Assembly (NCBI RefSeq): GCF_030419005.1
Contig: NZ_CP106951.1
Coordinates: forward strand, 2,790,001-2,854,000
Reading direction: 5' to 3'
Length of the DNA stretch: 64,000 nt
DNA from: Eleftheria terrae
GTDB taxonomy: Bacteria > Pseudomonadota > Gammaproteobacteria > Burkholderiales > Burkholderiaceae_C
The position numbers were made by a program, and so were the translations under genes. The notes under the pieces are model-generated. The model searched no databases, was not told the origin of the DNA, and saw nothing but the letters and a program-made list of their open reading frames with translations. Positions 173 through 25,199 of the stretch are shown in pieces. Position 1 is the stretch's first letter. Each line of letters begins with the position of its first letter.

Positions 173-910
173 GCCGGACGCGCTTTCGCGCGCCCACCGA
201 GCGGGGCCGGTGCCCCTCCGGGTCAATGCACCGGTAGAGCAGGGCGCCGACGACGCAAGTGCCGATCCGGCCATCGGCTGTGGACCCGCATCCCCGGACA
301 CCGGGCGCCTGGCCACGCTGCCAGGCAGCCCGGTCGATCACGCCTCCTGCACACCCTTCCCTGGCCGGCCAGGCCGTCACCATCGAGCCACTGATGCGGG
401 CAGCGCCGGGGCGGTCGCTTGACCAGGCAGTGAAGACTCTTTACAGTGCCATCCCTCGCCGCAGCCCGCTGGCTGGCGCCAGGGGGTTCACGGTTCTGGC
501 AAGTGCCCGCCGTGAGCCGCTCGCCTGCAGGTGCTTGAAGCCGCGCAGCATCCCGGACTGCTGCGGTGGCGCGCAGGTGTCCGGCATCGCGCCTGATTGC
601 GTGTTGATTGCGTGGTGGTCGCGTGCGATGCGACTCCCCCGGAGGCAGCCCTCGACGGCCCCACCGATCGCCGGGCCTCGACAAGGCCTGCGCGGCAGCG
701 CGCCGGGGCTGCCTTGCGGGCGTCCCGCAGCATGGGTGGGCAGCGCCTTCGCGCTGCCCTGAGCCCAAGCTGCCTGAACGGCGCAGACCATGCACCGCGA
801 CAGGAGATGCCCCGCCTCGGCGGACCGATTCACCTTCGGGCAGCCCGGCAGGGCCCCGCCCTGTGCGCCTTGGGAGCCGCTGCGCCGGCTTGACCTAGAG
901 AGAGACGACC
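173..910. other. Long intergenic region
   Basis: No open frame here looks coding: the frames are mutual shadows with arginine- and proline-rich translations and no ribosome binding site. It contains a promoter-like module at 419-447 on the + strand. The next gene starts at 911 behind the purine-rich AGAGAGAGACG at about 895-905, which is the likely ribosome binding site of that gene. Confidence 0.5.
419..447 (+). promoter_or_regulatory. Sigma70-like promoter with dyad in the spacer, copy 1
   Basis: TTGACC (419-424), a 17-nt spacer and TACAGT (442-447) make a good vegetative promoter. The spacer and -10 carry AGTGAAGACTCTTTACAGT (429-447), whose core GTGAAGA-C-TCTTTAC is a 7-1-7 inverted repeat with one mismatch. 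The same 19 bases recur at 17478-17496 with the same -35 spacing, so a repressor or activator may bind both. What this copy drives is unclear; the next + strand gene is about 460 nt away. Confidence 0.55.
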
Positions 911-5522: not shown

Positions 5523-6502
5523 TGTGCCGCGGTCGCCGGCGATCGCCCCGCACGCCCGGCCCTGCCCGGTGTCCGGTGCCGGCGGCACGCTACTTGGCAT
5601 GGGGCGACTCCGGTCGGCCCTGCCAGCTCGGCCCCCCGCGCACGGCAACCCATGCCACGGTTCAGCACTGCCTTTCGCCTCGCTGCTTCCGGTATTCACT
5701 GCAGGCCAGGCAATTTCTCTGTGGTGAAAGAAGGGCCGCCCCATTAAATGGGATCGATTACCTCAAACACAAAGATCACGGCACCATTATCACGATGCCG
5801 CGCAAAAACCACCGCAAGAACTGACAGGTGACAAGCAATTCTTCCCGCCGTTTTTCGAGAACCAAAACGGACCGAAGCGCCATTCGGCAATAACCCCTAG
5901 CATTCACCCCGCCAGATTCAAGTAACAGAACGTGTAAAAACAACTGCCAATCATCCCCCCGAAAGGGGGTGTCCACGCTGAAACCGATTGAAATATAGTG
6001 GTTCCATTCGGAGAGTTGATCGAATCGCTTGACAGGCTGGCGCAGTTGCTTATAGGCCACCGGCCATTTTCATCCACTGCGCGGCGGGTCTGATGGTGCG
6101 GCATTGCGTCGCGACATTTGGCGACGGTCTTGATAATCAATAAAACAATCCCGCCTGCCCCATGTTTTCCAGATTTTCCCCATGCCGCGGCTCCGGCCGT
6201 TTTTGCGGTGCCGTGACGGCGGCACGCGATGGTGTCCACCCATTCGCCATTCGGCTGACGGCTGTTCCGCCGGGCGCTCCAGGCCGCAGGCCCGGGTCGT
6301 TGAGTCCCGCCCCGGCGCGCTCACCGGCCCTGCCCTGAGGGAATCAACCTTCCCTGCACGCGGACGCTGACGCGCCGCCCCCTCACGCCACGGCCGACCG
6401 GCCCCGGACGCCGGGATGGCTATTTCCGCCAGGCGGGCAGCGCCAGCCACCAGGCTGGCTGCGCATCGGCAGGCCATGACATCGAACAACAAGGAAAACC
6501 GG
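5523..6502. other. Intergenic, AT-rich upstream region of the biosynthetic cluster
   Basis: Nearly 1 kb without a convincing gene. About 5690-6180 is clearly AT-richer than everything around it, unlike neighbouring spacers, and fits either a promoter-rich control region or DNA of foreign origin. It contains a promoter candidate at 6029-6056 and an 11-bp perfect palindrome TTGATAATCAA at 6130-6140. No 19-bp Fur box was found. Confidence 0.45.
6029..6056 (+). promoter_or_regulatory. Sigma70-like promoter upstream of the biosynthetic cluster
   Basis: TTGACA (6029-6034), a 16-nt spacer and TATAGG (6051-6056) lie in the AT-rich stretch on the cluster strand. It would give a leader of roughly 440 nt before the first start codon at 6503. 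It is the best promoter match upstream of the cluster. Confidence 0.45.
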
Positions 6503-17467: not shown

Positions 17468-17496
17468 TTGACGAAGAAGTGAAGACTCTTTACAGT
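17468..17496 (+). promoter_or_regulatory. Sigma70-like promoter with dyad in the spacer, copy 2
   Basis: TTGACG (17468-17473), 17-nt spacer, TACAGT (17491-17496). The segment 17478-17496 is identical to 429-447. It points away from the GNAT gene toward a short unit that ends in the terminator at 17804-17835. The dyad also lies about 70 nt upstream of the GNAT start, so a bound protein could control both directions. Confidence 0.55.
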
Positions 17497-17566
17497 TCAA
17501 CCTGTCGCTGCAACGCCATCGCTGCAGCTCCTGAATCGTACCGACCATTCCACTGAAGAGTTCATC

Positions 17567-17770
17567 GTGAAAACCCACGGCCACATCATCGATCGCTCGC
17601 TGTCCCTGCTGGGTCAGTGCGGCTTCGTGCCGGCGGGCGTCGAGAGCCAGTGCTGCAGCCAGCGGCACAGTGACCGTTCGATGAATCAAGATCCGTCCGT
17701 CCTGCGCCGGCCAGTGGCTGCATCGCAGGGTGAGGAACATCGAAAACATCCGGGCCAGGGAGGCGCTTGA
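17567..17770 (+). CDS. Possible small protein or sRNA unit between promoter and terminator
   Basis: A 67-aa frame starting GTG, with GAAGAG 8 nt upstream, translates MKTHGHIIDRSLSLLGQCGFVPAGVESQ and onward. It resembles no family I know and its composition is ordinary. It is listed because it is bracketed by a good promoter (17468-17496) and an intrinsic terminator (17804-17835), defining a transcript of about 330 nt. The product may equally be a small RNA. Confidence 0.3.
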   Translation: MKTHGHIIDRSLSLLGQCGFVPAGVESQCCSQRHSDRSMNQDPSVLRRPVAASQGEEHRKHPGQGGA

Positions 17771-17787
17771 GGCGCACACCCCTGTCG

Positions 17788-17835
17788 CTTGATCACCGAT
17801 CAAGGCCCGGATTCCGAAAGGATCCGGGCCTTTTT
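17788..17835 (+). terminator. Intrinsic terminator (double hairpin)
   Basis: A 7-bp stem CTTGATC/GATCAAG (17788-17804) is followed by a 9-bp stem GGCCCGGAT/ATCCGGGCC (17804-17812 and 17822-17830) and TTTTT. It insulates the tRNA-array promoter region from upstream transcription. Confidence 0.8.
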
Positions 17836-17916
17836 GCTTTCTGCCGGGCAACCGCAAAGCGGTTCAGCCCATCCCGAGCCGGCTGGCGACCGGCCATCGT
17901 GTTCCACCGGGACACA

Positions 17917-17952
17917 CCGTTGCGCACGGCGCAACGGACTGCTCTTTAACAA
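17917..17952 (+). promoter_or_regulatory. boxB/boxA-like antitermination leader
   Basis: A perfect 9-bp hairpin CCGTTGCGC-ACG-GCGCAACGG (17917-17937) is followed 2 nt later by TGCTCTTTAACAA (17940-17952), which matches the boxA of bacterial rRNA operon leaders. The order hairpin then boxA is that of an rrn leader. In rRNA operons this loads NusB/S10/SuhB and makes polymerase resistant to Rho. Here it precedes a tRNA and RNA-repair array instead of rRNA. It may have been copied from an rrn leader. Confidence 0.65.
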
Positions 17953-18014
17953 GTTGCCGCGAGCCGCCTGTGCCACTGGGTACAAGGCGCGCTCGCATCT
18001 CAAGAAGAAATGAA

Positions 18015-18090
18015 GCGGATATAGCTCAGTCGGCAGAGCGCGACCATGCCACGGTCGAGGCCCCGGGTTCGAATCCCGGTATCCGCTCCA
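18015..18090 (+). tRNA. tRNA-Gly(GCC)
   Basis: Complete 76-nt cloverleaf: acceptor GCGGATA/TATCCGC, D stem GCTC/GAGC, anticodon stem CGACC/GGTCG with loop ATGCCAC (anticodon GCC), T arm CCGGG-TTCGAAT-CCCGG, discriminator T, encoded CCA. First member of the array. Confidence 0.9.
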
Positions 18091-18289
18091 GCATCTCATT
18101 GCGGGTGTGCTTCAGCACCACGGCCAGTCAGTTGCCTCTGAAAGCGCAGGGGTGGCCGGGATGTGCGCAGCGGGCCGGCCCGCATCGTGCAGCGAGACCG
18201 CGCTGAGCGGGAGTTCCCCGCGCTCGCGCCGAAGCACAACCGCAATGGGATACAGGGCAGCGCTCCGTCACTCCAGGAGCCGCCCATTT

Positions 18290-18379
18290 GGAGAGCTGCC
18301 CGAGCGGTAAGGGGCCGGCTTGCTAAGCCGTGGCCGGTGCGAAAGCGCCGCACAGGTTCGAATCCTGTGCTCTCCGCCA
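18290..18379 (+). tRNA. tRNA-Ser(GCT)
   Basis: 90-nt class II tRNA: acceptor GGAGAGC/GCTCTCC, loop TTGCTAA (anticodon GCT), variable arm CGGTGC-GAAA-GCGCCG, T arm ACAGG-TTCGAAT-CCTGT, discriminator G and CCA. The outermost anticodon-stem pair (27-43) is a C-T mismatch. Confidence 0.87.
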
Positions 18380-18399
18380 ATTGATCATCTGGTTCATGA

Positions 18400-18475
18400 G
18401 TCTCGTTCGTCTAGCGGTCCAGGACACGACGCTTTCACTGTCGGAACACGGGTTCGATCCCCGTACGAAACGCCA
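18400..18475 (+). tRNA. tRNA-Glu(TTC)
   Basis: 76 nt. Acceptor GTCTCGT/ACGAAAC has a C-A mismatch at the third pair; D stem GTC/GAC; anticodon stem CGACG/TGTCG with loop CTTTCAC; T arm ACGGG-TTCGATC-CCCGT; discriminator G and CCA encoded. Confidence 0.85.
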
Positions 18476-18569
18476 GCCTGCCTGGCAGCACCTTGGCCCG
18501 CTTCCAGCGGCGCCGGCCTGATCCGGCCTTGACTGGGCGGCACCCCCTTGGCGGCTCACACTGATCTGA

Positions 18570-18642
18570 TGGGGTGTCGTCGAGTGGCCTCAGACAGCCG
18601 GCTTTGACCCGGTGTACGCAGGTTCGAATCCTGCCGCCCCTG
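18570..18642 (+). tRNA. tRNA-Gln(TTG)
   Basis: 73 nt without encoded CCA (GCCC follows). Acceptor TGGGGTG/CGCCCCT pairs except U1-U72, where Gln tRNAs usually have U1-A72. D stem GTC/GAC, anticodon stem GCCGG/CCGGT with loop CTTTGAC, T arm GCAGG-TTCGAAT-CCTGC, discriminator G. Confidence 0.8.
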
Positions 18643-18810
18643 CCCCCCGCGACGGTGCCCCTGCCAGGCCCCGGATGCGCTTGCACAGGACAGGCCCTGC
18701 GCTGCCTGCCTGGTGCTGCCCCGTGCCGGCCCTCGTGTCGTGCAGGGCCAACCCCAGCCAGGACGCGCATGTGGCCACTGCCGTGGCAGGCGCATCATCC
18801 CCCCACCCTT

Positions 18811-18887
18811 GCGTCCGTAGCTCAGCTGGCAAGAGCGTGGCCGTCCGAAGGCCAAGGCCGGTGGTTCAAGTCCATCCGGACGCTCCA
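18811..18887 (+). tRNA. tRNA-Arg(CCG)
   Basis: 77 nt: acceptor GCGTCCG/CGGACGC, D stem GCTC/GAGC, anticodon stem TGGCC/GGCCA with loop GTCCGAA (anticodon CCG; purine at 32 is unusual), T arm GGTGG-TTCAAGT-CCATC with one G-U, discriminator T, CCA encoded. Confidence 0.85.
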
Positions 18888-18973
18888 ATGCGCGGCTCGC
18901 CGCGCCGATGACAGACACCGCCCGCATGGGCCGATGTCGCGCACGGAGGGGCCCTGGGCGCCCCTCTCTCTTC

Positions 18974-19063
18974 CGGCGCGAAGGCCGGCCAAAGGACAGG
19001 AAAGGCCGCATCGACGCTTCACGTCGGGCAGCCTGCGATGTCCTTGCCGCCCGGGTCGCGCCG
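18974..19063 (+). ncRNA. Y-RNA-like structure 1
   Basis: Outer stem CGGCGCGA (18974-18981) pairs perfectly with TCGCGCCG (19056-19063). The motif GCGCGAAGG on the 5' side and CCTTG on the 3' side match those of the other four structures near the TROVE gene. An inner stem AAGGACA (18992-18998) / TGTCCTT (19039-19045) and a hairpin CGACG-CTTCA-CGTCG (19012-19026) complete it. It lies directly before structure 2, just as structure 4 lies directly before structure 5. The tRNA-like part is not evident. Confidence 0.45.
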
Positions 19064-19072
19064 CCCGTTTTT

Positions 19073-19220
19073 CCGTTCGAGGGCGGGGAATGCAGGTGGA
19101 ACTACAGCCTGCCATGCTCGTGGTCGCGGGTTCGAATCCCGCCGGCTTCCCGTCAGGGGGGCCGTAGCTCAGTGGTTAGAGCACGATGTTTCACCGCTCC
19201 TTGTCACCGCCTTCGAACGG
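19073..19220 (+). ncRNA. Y RNA with circularly permuted tRNA-like domain (YrlA-like), copy A
   Basis: The ends pair over 17 positions (19073-19089 with 19204-19220; one mismatch, one G-U). An inner 8-bp stem GGTGGAAC/GTTTCACC follows. Between them, in permuted order, come a T arm GCGGG-TTCGAAT-CCCGC (19126-19142), a 9-bp acceptor-like stem (19143-19151 with 19156-19164) closed by GTCA, and a D arm GCTC-AGTGGTTA-GAGC (19167-19182). Reading the 3' half before the 5' half of a tRNA with the acceptor closed by a tetraloop is the architecture described for bacterial YrlA RNAs, which bind Ro60/Rsr. The TROVE gene is 4 kb downstream. Confidence 0.8.
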
Positions 19221-19353
19221 ATCCTTCATGTCGAGCCAGCCCGCCCTGCCCAGTGCACGGCCCGGCAGGTGCCACCGCGTGCCGGCCCTGCGGCCGGAGC
19301 GCGGTTCGGACAACAGGGACAATCCAGCGTCGCCCCCCGTTTGGAGAACGCGC

Positions 19354-19590
19354 TTGAAAACCTATGAAATTGAAGTACAGCGCCTGAAGTCGATGAAGCA
19401 CGACAAGGGCCTGATCGAGATCAACATCGATGCCCTCGTGCTGGCCCGTGCCGTGCGCGACGAGCAGTCCGCCACCAGCAGCCTGCGCCTGCAGGTCGAC
19501 GATGCCCGCACCCTGCTCATCCTGCTGAAGCAGCAGCTGGCCGAACTCGACAAGCTGCAGCCGCGCAGCCGGCGCTCGGGCCGCTGCTGA
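19354..19590 (+). CDS. Small protein encoded inside the tRNA array
   Basis: 78 aa from TTG 19354, with GGAGA 6 nt upstream; no ATG in the frame gives a sensible start. Sequence begins MKTYEIEVQRLKSMKHDKGLIEINIDALVLARAVRDEQ and continues LRLQVDDARTLLILLKQQLAELDKLQPRSRRSGR. The C-terminal half is a heptad-like Leu-rich helix with a basic tail, suggesting an RNA- or protein-binding coiled coil. Codon use is more coding-like than in the surrounding array. I do not recognise the family. Position between a Y RNA and tRNA-Asp suggests it belongs to the RNA-repair island. Confidence 0.65.
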   Translation: MKTYEIEVQRLKSMKHDKGLIEINIDALVLARAVRDEQSATSSLRLQVDDARTLLILLKQQLAELDKLQPRSRRSGRC

Positions 19591-19897
19591 AGCGCGAAAC
19601 CGCTCCCCGGCCTGGCGCCGCCGCGACCGGTGCTGCGCCGGCCCGCCCGCCGGCCGCACCTGGGTCCGAGTCCCGCCGCAAAGGCAGCACCGCCACCAAC
19701 TTGCCCGGCCTTCCGCGCCGCTGCCCCATCGGCAGGAGCGGATGCAGCCAAGCCGCCGGCCAGGGGCAGGCACCACGGCAGCCCTCATCGGGCCCGCGCC
19801 AGGCGGGCTGCCATCGGCCGCAAGGACGGGGCGGCGTCGGAACCCGTCACCGTAGAACACCAGGGAGGCCGGGCATGCAGGTCCTCGCCACCCAATT

Positions 19898-19973
19898 GCT
19901 CCGTTAACTCAGAGGCCAGAGTGCCGGCCTGTCTAGCCGGAAGCCGCGGGTTCGACTCCCGCACGGGGCGCCA
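19898..19973 (+). tRNA. tRNA-Asp(GTC)
   Basis: 76 nt: acceptor GCTCCGT/ACGGGGC with one G-U, D stem ACTC/GAGT, anticodon stem CCGGC/GCCGG with loop CTGTCTA (anticodon GTC; T at 37 and A at 38 instead of the usual A-C), T arm GCGGG-TTCGACT-CCCGC, discriminator G and CCA. Body sequence is unlike ordinary bacterial tRNA-Asp. Confidence 0.83.
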
Positions 19974-20146
19974 CTGTCATCACCCACCGAACCGGCGGAA
20001 GACCCCAGCCGCCCCCGCATGCCGCCAGCGCCCCGGGGATCGGGCTGGCCGGCTCGGGCGGGCCGGAGGGACGCCGCCCGGTCATCGAAGTGGCTGCGTC
20101 TCCCCGGAAAGCCGACCGGTCGAGTTCGGTCGGTGACCCAAATCAT

Positions 20147-20230
20147 CTCGGGATTGCCAAGCGGTCGAAGGCAGCGGTTTGCAACACCGCCGGCATCTTG
20201 CCCTCGCTGGTTCGAATCCAGCTCCCGAGT
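20147..20230 (+). tRNA. tRNA-Cys(GCA) with a long variable arm
   Basis: 84 nt. Acceptor CTCGGGA/TCCCGAG with C1-G72, class II D arm GCC-AAGCGGTCGAA-GGC, anticodon stem GCGGT/ACCGC with loop TTGCAAC, a 15-nt variable arm containing GGC-ATCTT-GCC, T arm GCTGG-TTCGAAT-CCAGC, discriminator T73; CCA not encoded. GCA and U73 are the main CysRS identity elements. Ordinary bacterial tRNA-Cys has a short variable loop, so this is a rare form. Confidence 0.8.
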
Positions 20231-20347
20231 CCTTTGCCCGGTGCCGGGGGCACCCGCTCGGATCGAGCGGCCGCCCCCGGCCCTTGCTTGCTGTGCCAGC
20301 CGCATGCTGCATGCGGGCCACGGTGCCGGGATTCCCTTCAACCCGCA

Positions 20348-20422
20348 CCTCGTGTAGCTCAGTGGCAGAGCACCGTCTTGATAAGGCGGGGGCCGGTGGA
20401 TCGTTCCCACCCACGAGGACCA
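20348..20422 (+). tRNA. tRNA-Ile(GAT) with aberrant T loop
   Basis: 75 nt: acceptor CCTCGTG/CACGAGG, D stem GCTC/GAGC, anticodon stem CCGTC/GGCGG with loop TTGATAA, T stem GGTGG/CCACC, discriminator A and CCA. The T loop is ATCGTTC rather than TTCRANY, so the invariant T54-T55-C56 and hence the normal D-loop/T-loop contact are missing. Confidence 0.78.
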
Positions 20423-20513
20423 AGACCAGCGTGCAGGCCCGTCCGGGACCGCTGCTCCTGCTGACAGGCAAGAGCGGTGCCTCGACCAGGGCCGCCCGTG
20501 CGGGCAGGACAAA

Positions 20514-20589
20514 CTCGGTGTGGCGCAGCAGGCAGCGCGCGTGCTTTGGGAGCATGAGGTCGTCCGTTCGATCCGGACCACCGAGACCA
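20514..20589 (+). tRNA. tRNA-Pro(TGG)
   Basis: 76 nt: acceptor CTCGGTG/CACCGAG, D stem GCGC/GCGC, anticodon stem CGTGC/GCATG with loop TTTGGGA, T arm GTCCG-TTCGATC-CGGAC, discriminator A and CCA encoded. Confidence 0.85.
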
Positions 20590-20686
20590 TCGCGTCGCAA
20601 TGGCGCGCAACCGGGCGGCGCCCGGCCCGGGGCCGGAGGCGGCGCGGCCGGTGCCTGCCACCTCCCCCCTCACGGTGCGCTCAGGT

Positions 20687-20757
20687 GTGGCCGTAGCTCA
20701 ACGGCAGAGCCGCGGGTTGTGGTCCCGCTGGTGTCGGTTCGATTCCGACCGGCCACC
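20687..20757 (+). tRNA. tRNA-His(GTG) lacking an encoded G-1
   Basis: Acceptor GTGGCCG/CGGCCAC, D stem GCTC/GAGC, anticodon stem GCGGG/CCCGC with loop TTGTGGT, T arm GTCGG-TTCGATT-CCGAC, discriminator C73. The base before G1 is T, so the G-1 that pairs with C73 and is the key HisRS identity element in bacteria is not encoded; CCA is not encoded either (CCT). Confidence 0.8.
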
Positions 20758-20841
20758 CCTGAGCGCATCCCCCTTTCCCCTCGTGCGGGTGCCGATGTGA
20801 TCGGCGCGCGGCCCCGGGGGTTTCAGTCGCCTTGGCGACAA

Positions 20842-20878
20842 GGCCCGCCCCCCGGTCTCCGTCCCGGGGAAGCGGGCC
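20842..20878 (+). other. Strong GC hairpin between the tRNA array and the operon
   Basis: GGCCCGC (20842-20848) pairs with GCGGGCC (20872-20878), enclosing a second stem CCCCGG / CCGGGG. It has no U-tract. It may be a processing site or attenuator separating the tRNAs from the rtcB mRNA. Confidence 0.35.
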
Positions 20879-20894
20879 ACCCCAGGAGAACATC

Positions 20895-20969
20895 ATGAAG
20901 AATCACAAGCAAGAACCGCCATTCCGGTGTCGAGACGACGAGCAAGCGTCGCAAGAGGCAGTGGTCTGA
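20895..20969 (+). CDS. Possible 24-aa leader peptide upstream of rtcB
   Basis: ATG 20895 with AGGAG at about 20884-20888 opens a frame MKNHKQEPPFRCRDDEQASQEAVV. The ribosome binding site is among the best in the island and the frame directly follows the hairpin, but 24 codons carry little evidence. Could be a regulatory leader peptide. Confidence 0.3.
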   Translation: MKNHKQEPPFRCRDDEQASQEAVV

Positions 20970-21294
20970 GGCCCGCGTGCAGGCGGCACCGTTGTCGTGC
21001 AGGGCGCCAAGCCCCTGCACGAGACATTCGGCCGCCATGCACCCTGCCCGTGTGGGTGGGGTCGCTGCTTTCGAGCGCTGCTGCGAGCGCAGCGGCTGCT
21101 TCGACGGCATGCGGCACCCTCATGACCACCGCGCGTAGCCGGCGCCATCGACCGGGCCGTGCCGCTCGGCAACGGCAATGTCCTGCGGCATCGCCGCCGG
21201 CCGCTTTCGCGCCGGTGCAGGCTCGCCGATCGCCGAGGCTGCCCGAAGCTGCCAGTCCATCCGGACGCATCACCCCCCAATAAGGAGAACAGCC
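20970..21294. other. Intergenic upstream of rtcB
   Basis: A 9-bp hairpin (CGTGCAGGG / CCCTGCACG, about 20998-21023) lies 280 nt upstream of rtcB. No sigma54 promoter (GGCAC-N5-TTGC), which normally drives rtcB operons under RtcR, was seen, and no rtcR gene is in the window. The operon may depend on the boxA-led transcript from about 17.95 kb. Confidence 0.4.
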
Positions 21295-22497
21295 ATGGAG
21301 CTGATGAAGAATGTCCAGGGATGGACCGAAGGCGTCGAGGTCGACCACCAGGCGCTCAACCAGATCCGCCACATCGCCGGCCTGCCCATCGTGGCGGGTC
21401 ATGTGGCCATCATGCCCGACGTGCACCTGGGCAAGGGCGCGACGGTGGGCTCCGTGATTCCCACCCGGGGCGCCATCATTCCCGCGGCCGTCGGTGTCGA
21501 CATCGGCTGCGGCATGTGTGCCGTGCGAACCGACCTGCGGGCCGGGGATCTGCCCGACAGCCTGGCCGCCATTCGATCGGCGATCGAATCCTTGGTGCCG
21601 GTCGGGTTCGCGGCGCACGACAAGGAAGTGAACCCGACGCATGAAGCCGCCCATGGCCGCGTGCTGAAGCAGCGCATGGACGCGCTGTACGCCCGGTTCG
21701 AGAAGCTGTCCATCCTGTCGGTGCTCGGTGCCCTCGACGCCCGCCGCATCTGGAAGCAGATCGGCACGCTGGGCGGCGGCAACCACTTCATCGAACTGTG
21801 CCTCGACGAGGCCGGCGCGGTGTGGGTGATGCTGCACTCCGGCTCGCGCAATATTGGCAAGACGATCGGCGAAGCCGCCATCGGCATGGCGCGCGAAGCG
21901 TGCGCCCGGGCCGGCGTGGGCTTGCCCGACCGCGACCTGGCCTGGCTGAACGAAGGCTCGCCCGAGTTCCACCAGTATGTGCAGGCCTTGCAATGGGCGC
22001 AGGACTACGCGGCGCTCAACCGCGACCTGATGCTGTTCCGCGTGATGCGCGCACTGCGCGAGACACTCGGGCGCGAGATCGGCTCCACCAAGGAAGCCAT
22101 CAACTGCCACCACAACTACGCGACGGTCGAAGAGCATTTCGGCGCCAAGGTGTGGATCACCCGCAAGGGCGCGGTGAGCGCGCGCGAAGGCCAGCTCGGG
22201 ATCATTCCCGGCTCGATGGGCGCCAAGTCCTACATCGTGCGGGGCAAGGGCAACCCCTTGTCGTACTGCTCATGCTCGCATGGCGCCGGCCGGCGCCACT
22301 CGCGCGGCATGGCAAAGCGCCTGTTCGACCTCGACGCGCTGGCGGCCCAGACGGCCGGCGTGGAATGCCGCAAGGACGAAGGCGTGCTCGACGAGATTCC
22401 GGGCGCCTACAAGGACATCGATGCCGTCATGGCCGCGCAGGCCGACCTGGTGAGCGTGGAGCACACGCTCAAGCAGGTCTTGTGTGTGAAAGGCTGA
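21295..22497 (+). CDS. rtcB: RNA-splicing/repair ligase RtcB
   Basis: 400 aa, full-length RtcB. Metal-binding motifs GVDIGCGMCAV (Cys near residue 75), GTLGGGNHFIEL and HSGSRNIGK are present, and the guanylylated histidine lies in CSHGAGRRHSR (His329). RtcB joins 2',3'-cyclic phosphate or 3'-phosphate RNA ends to 5'-OH ends using GTP and Mn2+, healing tRNAs cut by ribotoxins. ATG 21295 follows a perfect AAGGAG. It heads a three-gene operon with an HNH gene and the TROVE gene, directly downstream of the tRNA array. No rtcA cyclase is present. Confidence 0.96.
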   Translation: MELMKNVQGWTEGVEVDHQALNQIRHIAGLPIVAGHVAIMPDVHLGKGATVGSVIPTRGAIIPAAVGVDIGCGMCAVRTDLRAGDLPDSLAAIRSAIESLVPVGFAAHDKEVNPTHEAAHGRVLKQRMDALYARFEKLSILSVLGALDARRIWKQIGTLGGGNHFIELCLDEAGAVWVMLHSGSRNIGKTIGEAAIGMAREACARAGVGLPDRDLAWLNEGSPEFHQYVQALQWAQDYAALNRDLMLFRVMRALRETLGREIGSTKEAINCHHNYATVEEHFGAKVWITRKGAVSAREGQLGIIPGSMGAKSYIVRGKGNPLSYCSCSHGAGRRHSRGMAKRLFDLDALAAQTAGVECRKDEGVLDEIPGAYKDIDAVMAAQADLVSVEHTLKQVLCVKG

Positions 22498-22578
22498 AAG
22501 GCTGGAGGGGGCTGGTACTGCCATCTTCCTTCAGCGATTCCCCAAGAAAAGCAGAAGGAAGGAAAGGAGGAAACTCCG

Positions 22579-23142
22579 ATGCACCAGCACGTCCTGCAAC
22601 TGGACATCCAGGGTACGCCACAGCGTTGGATCACGCTGGAGCAGGCGGCCCTGCACTACGCCACCGACACGGTCGCCTGGGTCGACGGCAACGAGCCGCT
22701 GCGCACGCTGCGCGGCGGCGTCAACGCGGCCACCGGCCGGCAGTCGCTGATCGAGGTGCACCCGATCATCGCGCTGCGGGGCGCGTCCCGCATCAACCTG
22801 TTCGAGGTCACGCCCTCGCTCGCGAAACACAAGCTGTTCTGCCGCGACCGATACACCTGCGCCTACTGCGGCCAGCGCTTCCAGGAGCGTGAACTGCAAT
22901 GCGAGCACATCGTGCCGGAATCGCGCGGTGGCGGATGGACCTGGATGAACCTGGTCACTGCCTGCGGCCCGTGCAACGGCCGCAAGGCCGCCCGCACGCC
23001 CGAGGAGGCCGCCATGCCGCTGCTCTACCTGCCCTATGTGCCCAGCCGCTTCGAAGATTTTCTGCTCGAAGGCCGGCACATCCGGGCCGACGTGCACGAG
23101 TGGCTGGCCGCACGCCTGCCGAGGGGATCGCGGCTGAACTGA
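22579..23142 (+). CDS. HNH endonuclease between rtcB and the TROVE gene
   Basis: 187 aa. The C-terminal half is an HNH domain: RYTCAYCGQRF, LQCEHIVPESRGGGWTWMNLVTACGPCNGRKAARTPEEA, that is CxxC - H(E)H-type beta-beta-alpha metal - CxxC. The N-terminal 80 residues are an extension of the kind seen in small HNH proteins of the McrA group. AGGAGG at about 22566-22573 supports the start. Location inside an RNA-repair operon raises the question whether it acts on RNA or DNA; no such role is established. Confidence 0.85.
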   Translation: MHQHVLQLDIQGTPQRWITLEQAALHYATDTVAWVDGNEPLRTLRGGVNAATGRQSLIEVHPIIALRGASRINLFEVTPSLAKHKLFCRDRYTCAYCGQRFQERELQCEHIVPESRGGGWTWMNLVTACGPCNGRKAARTPEEAAMPLLYLPYVPSRFEDFLLEGRHIRADVHEWLAARLPRGSRLN

Positions 23143-23178
23143 CACCCACACCCCGACCATGACCCGAAGGAGGCTCCA

Positions 23179-24768
23179 ATGGTCAACACCCAACTGTTCC
23201 AGACGCTGAAGGGTGGACTGCTGCCGAAGGCCGATGCCGTGAACCACGCGCAGGCCCCGGCCTACGCCTTCAGCCCTCGCCACCAGCTGGCGCAACTGGC
23301 AGCCACCGGCTGCCTCAACCACACCTTCTACGCCACCGCCGACGAGCAGCTCGACCAGGTGCTGGTCCTGGCCCGCGAGCTCGAACCGGCCTTCGTCGCA
23401 AAGACGGCGATCCACGCGCGACAGGCCGGCCACATGAAGGACATGCCGGCGCTGCTGCTGGCGGTGCTGGCCAGCCGCGACGTGCAACTGCTCGAATCCG
23501 CCTTCGGCCGTGTGGTGGACAGCGGCAAGATGCTGCGCAACTTCGTGCAGATCGTCCGCTCCGGCGTGACCGGTCGCAAGTCGCTCGGCTCACGGCCGAA
23601 GAAGCTGGTGCAGCAATGGCTGCTGACGGCCAGCGAAGCGCAGCTGCTGCAGGCGTCGGTGGGCAACAGCCCGTCGCTGGCAGACGTCGTCAAGATGGTG
23701 CACCCCAAGCCGACGGAGCCCTGGCGCGCCGCCTGGTTCGCCTGGTTGATCGGCAAGCCGCATGACGAGGCGGCGCTGCCGCCGCTCACCTGGGCGTTCG
23801 AGCAATTCAAGCGCGCCTTGCTGAACGGGCCGGATGCCACGCGGCCGCTGCCGGCGCTGCCGGACGTGCCGTTCCAGCTGCTGACCGCCCTCGACTTGTC
23901 GACCGGGCACTGGTCCGACATCGCCCGCAAAGGGTCGTGGCAGATGGTGCGGCAGAACCTCAACACCTTTGCGCGCCACGGCGTGTTCGCGGTGCCGGGG
24001 GTGGCCGAGGCTGTGGCGGCGAAGCTGCGCGACCTCTCCTCGATCCGGCGGGCCCGCGTGCTGCCCTACCAGTTGCTGGCGGCTTTCAAGGCGGCGGGCC
24101 CGGAGGTGCCGGCGGTGGTGCGTGAAGCGCTGCAGGACGCGATGGACACCGCACTGGTGAACGTGCCGCAGCTCGACGGCCAGGTTGTGGTGTGTCCCGA
24201 CGTGTCGGGCTCGATGAGCTCGGCAGTGACGGGCCAGCGCGGCACTGCCACTTCGGCGGTGCGTTGCATCGACATCGCGGCGCTGGTGGCAGCGGCCTTC
24301 TGCGCGAAGAACCGGCACACGCAGGTGCTGCCGTTCGAGCGGACGGTGGTGCAGGTCGATCTGAATCCTCGCGATTCGGTGCTGACCAACGCGGCCCGGC
24401 TGGCATCGATCGGCGGCGGCGGCACCAACGTCAGCGCACCGCTGGCGCGGTTGAACGATCAGCGCGCCATGGTGGACCTGGTCGTCATCGTCTCGGACAA
24501 CGAGTCGTGGGTGGATGCCCGCCACCACGGCGGCACCGAAACGATGCGCCAATGGTCCGCGTTGAAGGCCCGTTGCCCCGCAGCCAAGCTGGTGTGCATC
24601 GACATCCAGCCGAACCGCACCAGCCAGGCGGCGGAGCGGGCCGACGTGATGAACGTCGGCGGATTCTCGGATGCGGTCTTCCTCGCGGTGGCGCAGTTTG
24701 CCAACGGCACGCTGGACGCCGGCCACTGGGTGGGCGAGATCGAGAAGATCCCGCTCGAGGCGCAGTGA
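23179..24768 (+). CDS. rsr: TROVE-domain protein (Ro60 orthologue, Rsr)
   Basis: 529 aa, typical Ro60/Rsr length. The N-terminal two thirds are HEAT-like helical TROVE repeats (FSPRHQLAQLAATGCLNHTFYA, HARQAGHMKDMPALLLAVLA, GRVVDSGKMLRNFVQIVRSG). The C-terminal part is a von Willebrand A domain with an intact MIDAS motif DVSGSMS (D341, S343, S345). Ro60 rings bind misfolded RNA and Y RNAs; in Deinococcus the Y RNA tethers the ring to PNPase for RNA degradation. AAGGAGG precedes the ATG by 8 nt. Five Y-RNA-like structures near the gene strengthen the assignment. Confidence 0.95.
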   Translation: MVNTQLFQTLKGGLLPKADAVNHAQAPAYAFSPRHQLAQLAATGCLNHTFYATADEQLDQVLVLARELEPAFVAKTAIHARQAGHMKDMPALLLAVLASRDVQLLESAFGRVVDSGKMLRNFVQIVRSGVTGRKSLGSRPKKLVQQWLLTASEAQLLQASVGNSPSLADVVKMVHPKPTEPWRAAWFAWLIGKPHDEAALPPLTWAFEQFKRALLNGPDATRPLPALPDVPFQLLTALDLSTGHWSDIARKGSWQMVRQNLNTFARHGVFAVPGVAEAVAAKLRDLSSIRRARVLPYQLLAAFKAAGPEVPAVVREALQDAMDTALVNVPQLDGQVVVCPDVSGSMSSAVTGQRGTATSAVRCIDIAALVAAAFCAKNRHTQVLPFERTVVQVDLNPRDSVLTNAARLASIGGGGTNVSAPLARLNDQRAMVDLVVIVSDNESWVDARHHGGTETMRQWSALKARCPAAKLVCIDIQPNRTSQAAERADVMNVGGFSDAVFLAVAQFANGTLDAGHWVGEIEKIPLEAQ

Positions 24769-24782
24769 GGAAGCAGTAGAAC

Positions 24783-24895
24783 GGCGTCGCAGGCGAATGC
24801 GCGCAGGAGTACAGCACCACCCTGCCCAGGAGGCCGCTGACCTCCACCGGTGACCCCGGCCGGCAGCTCTTGCGCCTCTTGTCGCCTGCGACGCC
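24783..24895 (+). ncRNA. Y-RNA-like structure 3
   Basis: A perfect 14-bp outer stem (24783-24796 with 24882-24895) is followed by an internal loop ATGC / CTCTTG and a 10-bp inner stem (24801-24810 with 24866-24875, two G-U). The top holds hairpins GGAGG-CCGCTGA-CCTCC and CCGG-TGACC-CCGG but no clear T arm. The asymmetric loop after GGCGA matches the other members. It starts 15 nt after the TROVE stop codon. Confidence 0.65.
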
Positions 24896-24910
24896 ACCCG
24901 CCCTGTTTTC

Positions 24911-24999
24911 GGCGCGAATGCGGGCAGGACTCCATGGATCATCAAGTTCGACTCTTGACGCCGGGCGACCGGCGAGGTCTTGCCCATTCTGGTCGCGCC
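24911..24999 (+). ncRNA. Y-RNA-like structure 4 with T-arm mimic
   Basis: Outer stem GGCGCGA/TCGCGCC (24911-24917 with 24993-24999), internal loop ATGC / ATTCTGG, inner 10-bp stem (24922-24931 with 24976-24985). The apex carries a T-arm mimic TCAAG-TTCGACT-CTTGA (24942-24958) followed at once by a 6-bp stem CGCCGG/CCGGCG closed by the GNRA tetraloop GCGA (24959-24974). The D arm is missing. It looks like a reduced version of copies A and B. Confidence 0.65.
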
Positions 25000-25007
25000 A
25001 CCCTTTT

Positions 25008-25153
25008 CCGTTCGAAGGCGGTGAATGCAGGTGGAACTACAGCCTGTCACGCTCGCGGTCGCGGGTTCGAGTCCCGCCGGTCTCCGCAAGGGGAACGTAG
25101 CTCAGTAGGTAGAGCACGACGTTTCACCGATCCTCGTCACTGTCTTCGGATGG
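25008..25153 (+). ncRNA. Y RNA with circularly permuted tRNA-like domain (YrlA-like), copy B
   Basis: Ends 25008-25024 and 25137-25153 pair at all 17 positions (13 Watson-Crick, 4 G-U). Inner stem GGTGGAAC/GTTTCACC (25030-25037 with 25121-25128). T arm GCGGG-TTCGAGT-CCCGC (25061-25077), acceptor-like stem CGGTCTCC/GGGGAACG (25078-25085 with 25090-25097, one mismatch) closed by GCAA, D arm GCTC-AGTAGGTA-GAGC. The stretch CCTGTCACGC before the T arm resembles the anticodon region of tRNA-Asp. Differences from copy A preserve pairing almost throughout, so the structure is under selection. The terminator at 25168 follows. Confidence 0.85.
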
Positions 25154-25167
25154 ATCTTTCCTCGTGG

Positions 25168-25199
25168 AAAACGGGCGCCTTCGGGCGCCCGTTTTTTTT
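25168..25199 (+). terminator. Strong intrinsic terminator closing the RNA-repair island
   Basis: ACGGGCGCC-TTCG-GGCGCCCGT (25171-25179 and 25184-25192), flanked by four A and followed by eight T. It is the best terminator in the window and lies 14 nt after Y RNA copy B. Confidence 0.92.

Follow-up and report, generated by a model that had tools for sequence, protein, structure and literature searches.

Why should ten tRNA genes, all with anticodons already encoded elsewhere in the chromosome, share one strand with genes for an RNA ligase and a Ro60 protein? This arrangement is found in the window, the 64,000-nucleotide stretch of Eleftheria terrae DNA analysed here. The island is probably a stress-induced backup for protein synthesis that is combined with repair genes and placed behind a leader responsive to ribosome stalling. 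On the best reading, by analogy, the backup tRNA set resembles the trn operon of Anabaena but uses a different switch. As a preliminary description of the window had it, the ten tRNA genes, rtcB, an HNH gene and a Ro60/TROVE gene all lie on the + strand. The island starts about 450 bases upstream of the point given there, with a promoter-operator, a leader frame and a terminator at 17468-17841.

The tRNA genes occupy 18015-20759 (+), and all are recovered by both ARAGORN and Rfam: Gly(gcc) at 18015-18090, Ser(gct) at 18290-18379, Glu(ttc) at 18400-18475, Gln(ttg) at 18570-18644, Arg(ccg) at 18811-18887, Asp(gtc) at 19898-19973, Cys(gca), with a long variable arm, at 20147-20232, Ile(gat) at 20348-20422, Pro(tgg) at 20514-20589 and His(gtg) at 20687-20759. 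The possibility that these are the sole genomic copies of their isotypes was checked and does not hold. Every anticodon has an ordinary copy among the dispersed chromosomal tRNAs, and of the 69 tRNA matches in the genome, 68 lie on the 5.46 Mb contig that bears the array. Ten genes fall below the 20 or more by which tRNA array units are defined (PMC5966550); homologous arrays in relatives hold up to 29.

Eight isotypes of array tRNA were measured, and in seven of them the acceptor stems are 98.7-100% paired; 6-7 of the 7 stem positions show changes in both bases. In the window, tRNA-Glu has one mismatched acceptor pair, and the Gln, Cys and His tRNAs lack an encoded CCA; the unit may be eroding. 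Anticodon loops are altered in the Asp, Glu, Leu-cag and Gly-gcc tRNAs of array loci. For Asp, the loop is ordinary in none of 40 array copies versus all 31 chromosomal ones, and the chromosomal Glu, Leu-cag and Gly-gcc tRNAs (30, 30 and 33 sampled) bring the ordinary-looped copies to all 124. Arg, the isotype most often retained in arrays, is mostly ordinary-looped (38/44 for Arg-ACG), 18 of 21 array Cys tRNAs carry one of two chromosomal loops, and the window's own Glu, Ile and Pro tRNAs have ordinary loops. Judged by sequence, most array tRNAs look functional. The earlier proposal sees them as spares for times of tRNA damage, when RtcB and Ro60 would repair or sort the fragments; it fits the duplicated anticodons, the paired acceptor stems and the Anabaena case described below. 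The decoy role that was also suggested is less likely, since most of these molecules resemble working tRNAs.

Downstream of the array, Pfam bears out all three protein genes: rtcB (21295-22497, +; PF01139, 1.8e-125), the array-type HNH nuclease gene (22579-23142, +; HNH_5, 3e-16) and the Ro60/TROVE-vWA gene, Rsr (23179-24768, +; vWA_Ro60, 2.7e-16), whose TROVE match of 5.2e-5 sits exactly on the Pfam cut-off. An intact rtcB and a TROVE gene thus occur within one unit, as in RNA repair operons. The Ro60 protein is 65-75% identical in 17 other genomes of the family, and a 93% identical rtcB counterpart lies between array and HNH gene in Caldimonas mangrovi. RtcR, present at 16 of 17 TROVE loci of relatives, has no match in the window. 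There is no rtcA in the island; the genome's only RTC match is at C2:3252225, and RtcR, RtcA and a second RtcB are grouped 0.44 Mb from the island.

The linkage of these genes, present here, had been taken to define a single unit. In relatives, a tRNA lies just upstream of the HNH gene in 66 of 76 array-HNH loci, and 17 control HNH loci have neither an array nor rtcB. Because rtcB is only frequent (40/76) and TROVE occasional (10/76), the array does not form one ancient unit with the repair genes; its core is array plus HNH. The objection named in advance, that relatives would show the array apart from rtcB and TROVE, is thus borne out in part. Comparison with relatives shows two joined modules, an HNH-ended tRNA array and the known rtcR-TROVE-YrlA-rtcB operon.

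Five Y-like RNAs had been proposed, and two of them are strong matches to RF02553, at 19083-19213 within the array (+; E 8.1e-13) and at 25018-25146 (+; E 4.7e-13). The first copy, whose similarity spans 18971-19230, is 81% identical to the second over 217 nt. Their scores of 62.7 and 63.5 bits fall under the gathering score of 69, and both are named YrlA-type because their place matches that in relatives. A third module at 24911-25002 (+) is only weakly YrlA-like (31.6 bits, E 8e-4). The fourth, at 24777-24897 (+), is a covarying long hairpin of 37 pairs, 10 of them with both bases changed (covariation term -3.36 kcal/mol, 16 sequences), and hairpins of this type recur in the TROVE-rtcB gaps of relatives. 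The fifth, at 18093-18251 (+), proved to be another, array-specific kind of RNA. This element, E2, is about 150-160 nt long with the closing stem CUCAUUGCGG/CCGCAAUGGG and occurs in 61 of 76 array loci. It has 33 pairs, 13 with both bases changed (covariation term -3.6 kcal/mol, 30 sequences), and no convincing match in Rfam. The strong terminator said to close the island, at 25168-25199 (+), is evident on reading the sequence, though absent from the pattern-scan list.

Three further elements lie in or beside the array. The embedded 78-aa frame noted previously (19354-19590, +, TTG start) has no Pfam match; a single other array locus carries a 69% relative of it, there on the opposite strand. 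E3 (19780-19856, +), a conserved noncoding stretch ahead of tRNA-Asp with little covariation, is found in 29 of 76 array loci. E4 (20928-21111, +; 22/76 loci) is apparently a decayed copy of a small zinc-motif gene that occurs in other arrays; the motif GRNDPCPCGS..RFKRCC, picked out by eye in the translations, is one we take to be of the SEC-C family.

The island begins with a sigma70-like promoter at 17468-17496 (+; TTGACG, 17 nt, TACAGT), whose -10 element overlaps the near-palindrome GTGAAGAcTCTTTAC, a putative operator. This motif is conserved in 63 of 89 array loci versus 0 of 89 shuffled copies, and none was found on either strand of the 17 control HNH loci (263 kb). The 7.03 Mb genome holds three exact occurrences of the operator. 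Two of them lead tRNA clusters, the island and a second small one. The third, at 418-447 (+) and 17 kb from the island, precedes an R2K_3 ATP-grasp gene (911-1681, +), which on this basis is a putative member of the island's regulon. Motif and terminator scans also bear out the boxB/boxA-like leader described earlier (17917-17951, +), a boxB-like hairpin at 17917-17937 followed by boxA TGCTCTTTAACA at 17940-17951. A boxA with at most one mismatch occurs in 27 of 89 array loci; that of the genome's own rrn leader is AGCTCTTTAACA.

Attenuators of the trp and his type combine a leader frame, a terminator and a mutually exclusive upstream pairing. Here, a leader frame of 67 codons with a GTG start (17567-17770, +) is predicted in silico to be translatable upstream of an intrinsic terminator (17802-17841, +), which was found by scan and folding and is 92-100% identical among the best 15 matches listed. 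The end of the frame carries ATCCGGGCC at 17748-17756, complementary over nine base pairs to the first terminator arm GGCCCGGAT (17804-17812). Palindromic operator-promoter and conserved terminator occur together in 59 of 89 array loci. In 58 of these 59 leaders the two flank a counterpart of the frame, recognised by a PG a few residues before its end, and the end of this frame is able to pair with the first terminator arm. When the start and CCGGG anchors are placed without regard to reading frame, 49 of 50 leaders have the two in register, with 18 different distances between them represented. Of the two alternative frames, one is open in 3 of 58 leaders and the other in 25. Codon positions differ equally (0.355/0.293/0.351), so the peptide shows no conservation at the protein level. 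The leader has no visible run of control codons, and comparison of leader residues with array isotypes gave a median p of 0.10 and 0.003 after thinning of relatives.

When an early-stalled ribosome is modeled in silico, the pairing of leader end and terminator arm has a probability above 0.5 in 46 of 57 leaders, and in none of the 57 when the leader frame is shuffled. That this antiterminator is absent when the ribosome sits on the stop codon follows from how the mask was built. Without any ribosome the antiterminator is predicted as well (above 0.5 in 52/57), and the static model therefore has untranslated leaders reading through. When the full leader is folded to its optimum, the terminator forms whichever of four ribosome positions is tried, which means that switching has to be kinetic. 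The arms pair only a little more stably with their own partners than with swapped ones (-13.18 versus -12.63 kcal/mol; permutation p 0.0019, kinship ignored), and covariation is weak, with 14 of 40 distinct pairs mismatched beside the core. In these models the leader resembles trp-style attenuation, in which a stalled ribosome would let transcription proceed into the array.

From these features we infer the direction of the switch, its trigger, a repressor and the task of each product. A putative repressor would hold the promoter through the palindrome. Once transcription starts, ribosomes would translate the leader; if they complete it, 17748-17756 would be covered, allowing the terminator to form and halt transcription. 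If they stall early, as when tRNAs are cut or translation is blocked, this segment would remain free to pair with the emerging first arm, and the polymerase would read through. The boxA could then aid its passage across the long untranslated stretch. Read-through would yield a further set of tRNAs whose anticodon loops are altered, RtcB would rejoin broken RNA, and Ro60 with the YrlA RNAs would sort or break down RNA beyond repair. The product of the HNH gene, a predicted DNA nuclease, would most likely spread the array.

Other readings have to be set beside this one. The leader may encode an antibiotic-sensing arrest peptide, or be a Rho-linked element, stalled by specific drugs or peptides. 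The recurrent motifs RPxxGxxAFV near the start of the frame (by eye) and PGxGxA at its end would suit such a peptide, the Anabaena trn array answers to ribosome-targeting antibiotics (PMC10272220) and in E. coli a single uORF responds to drugs of several classes (PMC12121999). Against this rather doubtful reading, the peptide is otherwise weakly constrained and the terminator is intrinsic. Somewhat less probable is domesticated anti-defence cargo of a phage or plasmid, in which the array once allowed the mobile element to translate when anticodon nucleases of the host had been set off, with the leader answering that event. It departs from the backup reading mainly in origin. Consistent with it, 7 of 13 hand-picked plasmid loci with HNH-linked arrays carry 20-35 tRNAs, a viral contig has 27, TROVE occurs inside the tRNA region of Myxococcus phage Mx1, and the loop changes match those predicted for phage tRNAs (PMC10264068). 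The chromosomal setting of the window's array among nearly all the genome's tRNAs, the rrn-like boxA and the operator common to the R2K gene look instead like host integration.

An improbable reading is a selfish HNH-tRNA element that homes into tRNA regions carrying tRNAs with it, the link to rtcB and TROVE being incidental co-location. No protein gene accompanies the arrays more constantly than HNH, which was also the search query; the best solved-fold neighbours of its model are DNA-cutting HNH domains such as the Gme HNH nickase and that of Cas9, and for arrays of mycobacteria and phages homing has been proposed (PMC5966550, PMC6409571). A conserved leader, compensated stems and rtcB at 40 of 76 loci would be surprising in an element that is purely selfish. 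An ordinary extra tRNA operon for codon supply, lacking a stress role, would explain functional-looking tRNAs and a boxA like that of the rRNA operon. It is highly improbable, given that the anticodons are all present already, loops are altered, the leader holds a terminator and repair genes share the unit.

The backup reading has its closest precedent in the trn (L-array)/TrcR regulon of Anabaena sp. PCC 7120 (PMC10272220, PMC9938897), where a redundant array beside an HNH gene responds to translation stress. The array, rtcB, HNH and slipin genes are all derepressed without TrcR (PMC10272220). There, rtcB is chromosomal and the array lies on a plasmid, whereas the island has rtcB, HNH and TROVE in one unit behind an attenuator-like leader; the Anabaena repressor is a ribbon-helix-helix protein with the site TGTAGTAT, from which the island palindrome differs. 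The terms 'uORF', 'leader peptide' and 'attenuation' are absent from the text of PMC10272220. The Salmonella rsr-yrl-rtcBA operon (PMC7790460) also brings together RtcB, Ro60/Rsr and YrlA RNAs, but the island lacks adjoining RtcR or rtcA and adds the array and HNH gene. Array units of mycobacteria, and of mycobacterial plasmids and phages (PMC5966550, PMC12803027), share redundant anticodons, a changed anticodon domain and a common HNH gene, though the island has only ten tRNAs. As in phage tRNAs (PMC10264068), array loops depart from the host's at positions 32-38; in contrast, the array is chromosomal, and among array tRNAs at large Arg-ACG, Asn, Trp and most Pro-TGG keep the host's loop. The leader is like trp/his attenuators and stress-sensing uORFs (PMC12121999) in its frame, terminator and predicted exclusive pairing. 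Unlike them, it would control a tRNA and RNA-repair transcript, and its untranslated form is predicted to read through. The island had been called little described, which is half right. Arrays with HNH genes are already published for mycobacteria and phages (PMC5966550, PMC12803027, PMC6409571); 'RtcB' is absent from the texts of PMC5966550 and PMC12803027.

The role of redundant tRNA arrays is called unknown in PMC12803027. If true, a leader through which stalled ribosomes set free an entire tRNA set would give these arrays a direct mechanism and protein synthesis a self-correcting backup. It would also join RNA repair operons to tRNA arrays, for which the Anabaena regulon is the one published link found, and account for the repeated occurrence of RtcB and Ro60 next to tRNA genes. 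Because the loop changes are specific to certain isotypes (Asp, Glu, Leu, Gly), they may help to identify the hostile nuclease. More tentatively, with chances a little short of even, Burkholderiales at large may keep a near-complete spare tRNA set with recoded anticodon loops, silent behind a repressor and a generic attenuator that senses ribosome progress. Any loss of tRNA would open the switch, and its product would close the feedback loop by refilling the pool; RtcB, slipin or Ro60 modules would serve as interchangeable repair arms.

Both gene finders agree on the ten tRNA genes reported in the preliminary description (ARAGORN and Rfam, 18015-20759, + strand), and Pfam supports each of the rtcB, HNH and Ro60/TROVE genes that follow, with a TROVE match exactly at the curated cut-off and a clear vWA_Ro60 match. 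The parts of the island are real. The 7.03 Mb genome has four contigs and 69 tRNA matches, 68 of them on the contig that carries the array. ARAGORN, run on stretches covering these matches, finds at least one ordinary copy outside the array for each of the ten anticodons: four of Ile-gat, two each of Gly-gcc, Glu-ttc and Asp-gtc, and one each of Ser-gct, Gln-ttg, Arg-ccg, Cys-gca, His-gtg and Pro-tgg, plus one odd Pro-tgg with a long arm. Because each anticodon is duplicated in this way, the possibility that the array holds the sole genomic copies, which would have counted against the preliminary description, is ruled out.

In seven of the ten array tRNAs of the window, the seven-base anticodon loop is unlike that of the host copy. 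When unique array sequences are compared with chromosomal copies, the change is isotype-specific across arrays. The ordinary loop occurs in 0/40 array and 31/31 chromosomal copies for Asp, 1/35 and 30/30 for Glu, 4/15 and 33/33 for Gly-gcc, and 0/29 and 30/30 for Leu-cag (Fisher p 6e-8 to 8e-21, ignoring relatedness). The chromosomal set comprises the 30 best-matching loci from each of three 40-genome searches, own genome included, and therefore leans towards host-like copies. Cys gives a less clear contrast, with TTGCAAA in 28/30 and CTGCAAA in 2/30 chromosomal copies versus 6/21 and 12/21 in arrays. Arrays keep the host-type loop in Arg-ACG (38/44), Asn (16/17) and Trp (15/15). Array copies of tRNA-Cys measure 86-87 nt, including a long variable arm (window 20147-20232; locus L084 7505-7591; locus L089 6873-6958), versus 74 nt for chromosomal tRNA-Cys.

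Acceptor stems were counted in tRNAs already accepted by ARAGORN and encoding CCA, with isoacceptors lumped. Seven of the eight measured isotypes have 98.7-100% standard pairs, with changes on both sides at six to seven of the seven positions; the figure for Gln is 86%, perhaps due to ends set by a fixed offset. CCA is encoded by 585 of 665 array tRNAs. In the window, one acceptor pair of Glu is mismatched, and the genes for Gln, Cys and His do not encode CCA. Merging 111 array loci, some from genomes that had entered twice, left 88 unique loci, over which the most retained isotypes are Arg (70), His (63), Pro (46), Asp (45) and Glu (41). We read the array genes, from their sequences, as probable working tRNAs with altered loops and not as decoys.

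The HNH protein has a near-universal paralogue, with some match in 349 of 399 genomes, and among the matches listed there is also a closer, array-type group. A scan of named genomes took the best 80 of 106 candidates and obtained 79 loci; L245-L247, with HNH proteins 41-52% identical and no tRNAs, were left out of the 76 array-type loci, which are not independent since 23 are named Variovorax. A same-strand tRNA lies less than 600 nt upstream of the HNH gene in 66 of the 76, and 41 have at least three upstream tRNAs within 9 kb. The fetched flanks contain rtcB in 40 loci, TROVE in 10 and RtcR in 10, and 24 loci include a Band_7 (slipin) gene; among the 46 array-type loci longer than 20 kb, 20 carry rtcB. 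Array, rtcB and TROVE are found in none of 17 control loci around the HNH paralogue, three of which have a single tRNA-Met. The array-HNH-rtcB link departs widely from the picture in these controls. Read by eye, the isotype order is largely common to the arrays, with Gly first and HNH last. One tRNA of varying isotype follows the HNH gene and precedes the rtcB part in L139, L140, L141, L143, L148, L151, L154, L159 and L167, and two do so in L163. This tRNA may be a partner RNA of the slipin.

Within the family, 18 of 200 genomes encode the TROVE protein, this genome among them. All 17 relatives' TROVE loci combine TROVE with RtcB, 16 have RtcR, and four also contain a tRNA array whose last gene is closely related to the HNH gene of the window (76-82% identical). 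In the nearest relative, Caldimonas mangrovi, an array of Gly-Asp-Arg-Ile-Pro-His-Arg is followed by rtcB (93%) and then HNH (87%), and rtcR-TROVE lies 8 kb beyond. In E. terrae, the sole RtcA of the genome sits with RtcR and a second RtcB at about C2:3252225-3255685, 0.44 Mb from the island. We infer that two modules have been joined in the window, one made up of array, rtcB and HNH and the other a TROVE-YrlA module without its former rtcR.

The five Y RNAs of the preliminary description survive only in part. At a permissive threshold, Rfam gives two strong YrlA-model matches, 25018-25146 (63.5 bits, E 4.7e-13) and copy 1 at 19083-19213 (62.7 bits, E 8.1e-13), both just below the gathering score of 69, and a weak third at 24911-25002 (E 8e-4). 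The number five is rejected on these scores and on the covariation of two other structures, 18093-18251 and 24777-24897. The latter is a long hairpin with a covariation term of -3.36 kcal/mol over 16 sequences; of its 37 pairs, 10 show changes on both sides. Its sequence also occurs in the TROVE-rtcB gap of relatives. The two strong YrlA-type copies share 81% identity over 217 nt, and relatives carry this sequence between TROVE and rtcB as well; for these reasons copy 1 is most simply explained as a duplicate inserted into the array.

The structure at 18093-18251, termed E2, is a structured RNA found in 61 of 76 array loci. Over 30 sequences, 13 of its 33 pairs show changes on both sides and the covariation term is -3.6 kcal/mol; a search of Rfam gave no convincing match. 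This RNA may serve array processing or the repair complex. A third copy, at 5704-5865 on the - strand of locus L353, immediately precedes a tRNA-Pro-like gene whose variable arm is long. Two further elements are conserved within the array stretch. E3 (19780-19856) is conserved in sequence in 29 of 76 array loci. E4 (20928-21111) is rejected as an RNA by a SEC-C-like motif in its translations, a motif we take to belong to the SEC-C family, and is instead a small gene whose two halves are in different frames in the copies read. GRNDPCPCGS and RFKRCC are split in this way in the window and in L138, L232 and L242, and, depending on frame, between 2 and 13 of 27 copies are open over the whole stretch. 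Programmed frameshifting or shared decay could account for the split.

An AlphaFold model of the HNH protein (mean pLDDT 79.5, pTM 0.55, 18 sequences) has as its best solved neighbours Cas9 HNH domains and the Gme HNH nicking endonuclease, six of them with E 3e-5 to 7e-4. Because these are DNA-cutting domains, the model favours DNA as the putative substrate and spread of the array as the putative role. Two papers propose HNH-mediated spread for other arrays (PMC5966550, PMC6409571). From 85 plasmid records matching HNH relatives, 13 loci were picked; seven carry 20-35 tRNAs, in cyanobacteria, actinobacteria and alpha- and betaproteobacteria, and six carry none or one. As annotated, the plasmid array of Variovorax RA8 (L380 5434-6495) encloses an RNA ligase gene, and that of Methylibium PM1 (L346 5197-6549) encloses HD and AlkB genes; these are possible other repair arms. 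The region of Myxococcus phage Mx1 (L097) that holds 26 tRNAs and an HNH gene also encloses a TROVE gene of 45% identity. A viral contig (L253) has 27 tRNAs around an HNH gene, and its tRNA-Asp loop, CTGTCTA, is as in bacterial arrays.

A conserved leader, absent from the preliminary description, lies upstream of the arrays. In the window it consists of a promoter-operator (17468-17496), a 67-codon frame (17567-17770) and a terminator (17802-17841). Among 89 array loci (88 unique plus the window), the promoter TTGACG-spacer-GTAAAGAnTCTTTACAGT, with a -10 element overlapping a palindrome, is present in 63, the terminator in 68 and both in 59; a boxA within one mismatch is found in 27. Loci shuffled by mononucleotide yielded counts of 0, 0 and 0. 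With up to two mismatches, boxA lies 61-75 nt before the first tRNA in 17 of 19 Gly-first arrays. A sigma54 promoter was rejected, its pattern being absent from 45 scanned stretches of up to 500 nt each. The leader is present on the Methylibium plasmid (L346) and was not found on the Variovorax plasmid (L380) or in the seven arrays or phage regions from outside Burkholderiales that were tested.

A reading frame separates promoter and terminator in 58 of 59 leaders, mostly starting with GTG after CATC and chosen by its ending in PG plus a few residues; L187 is the sole exception. The frame comes in 17 different lengths, and the other two frames are open in 3/58 and 25/58. That the frame is real is strengthened by a frame-blind check, in which the start anchor and the last CCGGG are in register in 49 of 50 leaders over 18 distances, the nine leaders without one of the two anchors being left out. 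Differences are spread evenly over the three codon positions (0.355, 0.293, 0.351), which rules out a conserved protein; therefore, translation of the leader seems to matter more than the peptide sequence. Tuning of the leader codons to the isotypes of the array gave mixed values (p 0.0002 before thinning relatives, 0.10 and 0.003 after) and was set aside.

Near its end the frame contains CCGGG, complementary to the first arm of the terminator; counted from the end of the stop codon, it usually begins 21 nt upstream. In the window, the leader-end segment ATCCGGGCC (17748-17756) can form nine base pairs with 17804-17812 as an antiterminator. RNAs extending up to, but excluding, the second terminator arm were folded for 57 leaders, with L206 left out because the script did not find that arm. 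With a ribosome stalled at the twentieth codon, the pairing probability of the antiterminator exceeds 0.5 in 46 of 57; other stall positions give 47, 48 and 53. A ribosome at the stop codon gives zero pairing by construction, the mask covering the segment. When the frame letters are shuffled, none of the 57 exceeds 0.5, and the mean falls from 0.70 to 0.03. Own leader-terminator partners show a small gain over swapped ones (p 0.0019, ignoring relatedness), and the base beside the core pairs in 26 of 40 distinct leader-terminator pairs.

These features make the array leader look like a ribosome-stall attenuator, at least in folding models. The likeness to the trp system is weakened because the ribosome-free leader also gives the antiterminator (above 0.5 in 52/57). 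A trp leader, when untranslated, does not read through; unlike it, the untranslated leader here is predicted to do so. Completed leader RNA of the window folds preferentially into the terminator at each of four ribosome positions. Thus, the leader would be a kinetic, trp-like switch in silico, with a putative trigger and direction.

The operator pattern has three sites in the genome, all without a mismatch though one was permitted, and a reversed control pattern has one match. Besides the site at this array, one lies at 430-447, about 460 nt before an R2K_3 ATP-grasp gene (site and gene spanning 418-1681); of 76 other loci, one (L244) has R2K close to its array. The third site, C2:2652066-2652083 on the other strand, heads a further small cluster that has a leader frame and terminator of its own, then tRNA-Arg, an odd 101-nt tRNA match and tRNA-Trp. 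This small array (L352, C2:2640000-2658000) is on the - strand, with a leader from about C2:2652095, and includes the E2 RNA. The motif was found in none of the 17 paralogue control loci (263 kb, both strands) and in none of 13 relatives' TROVE loci without an adjacent array.

Related arrays are known elsewhere. One study describes a silent 26-tRNA operon of Anabaena that, with rtcB and an HNH gene (all8564), is repressed by TrcR; the operon is induced by translation-targeting antibiotics, and its deletion lowers resistance to them (PMC10272220). According to another, all8564 adjoins the array, and rtcB and slipin changed alongside it, possibly as an effect of erythromycin (PMC9938897). Hughes et al. 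report that tRNA fragments turn on rtcBA via RtcR (PMC7790460). Among texts with two of the terms 'tRNA array', 'RtcB' and 'TROVE', only PMC10272220 joins 'tRNA array' and 'RtcB'. A search confined to pairings of tRNA array, operon or gene-cluster with leader-peptide, uORF or attenuation terms gave none among the matches listed. The island is best classed with redundant tRNA arrays that include RNA repair genes, here behind a leader resembling a ribosome-stall attenuator. Of the claims made for it, the putative attenuator is both the most surprising and the easiest to test.
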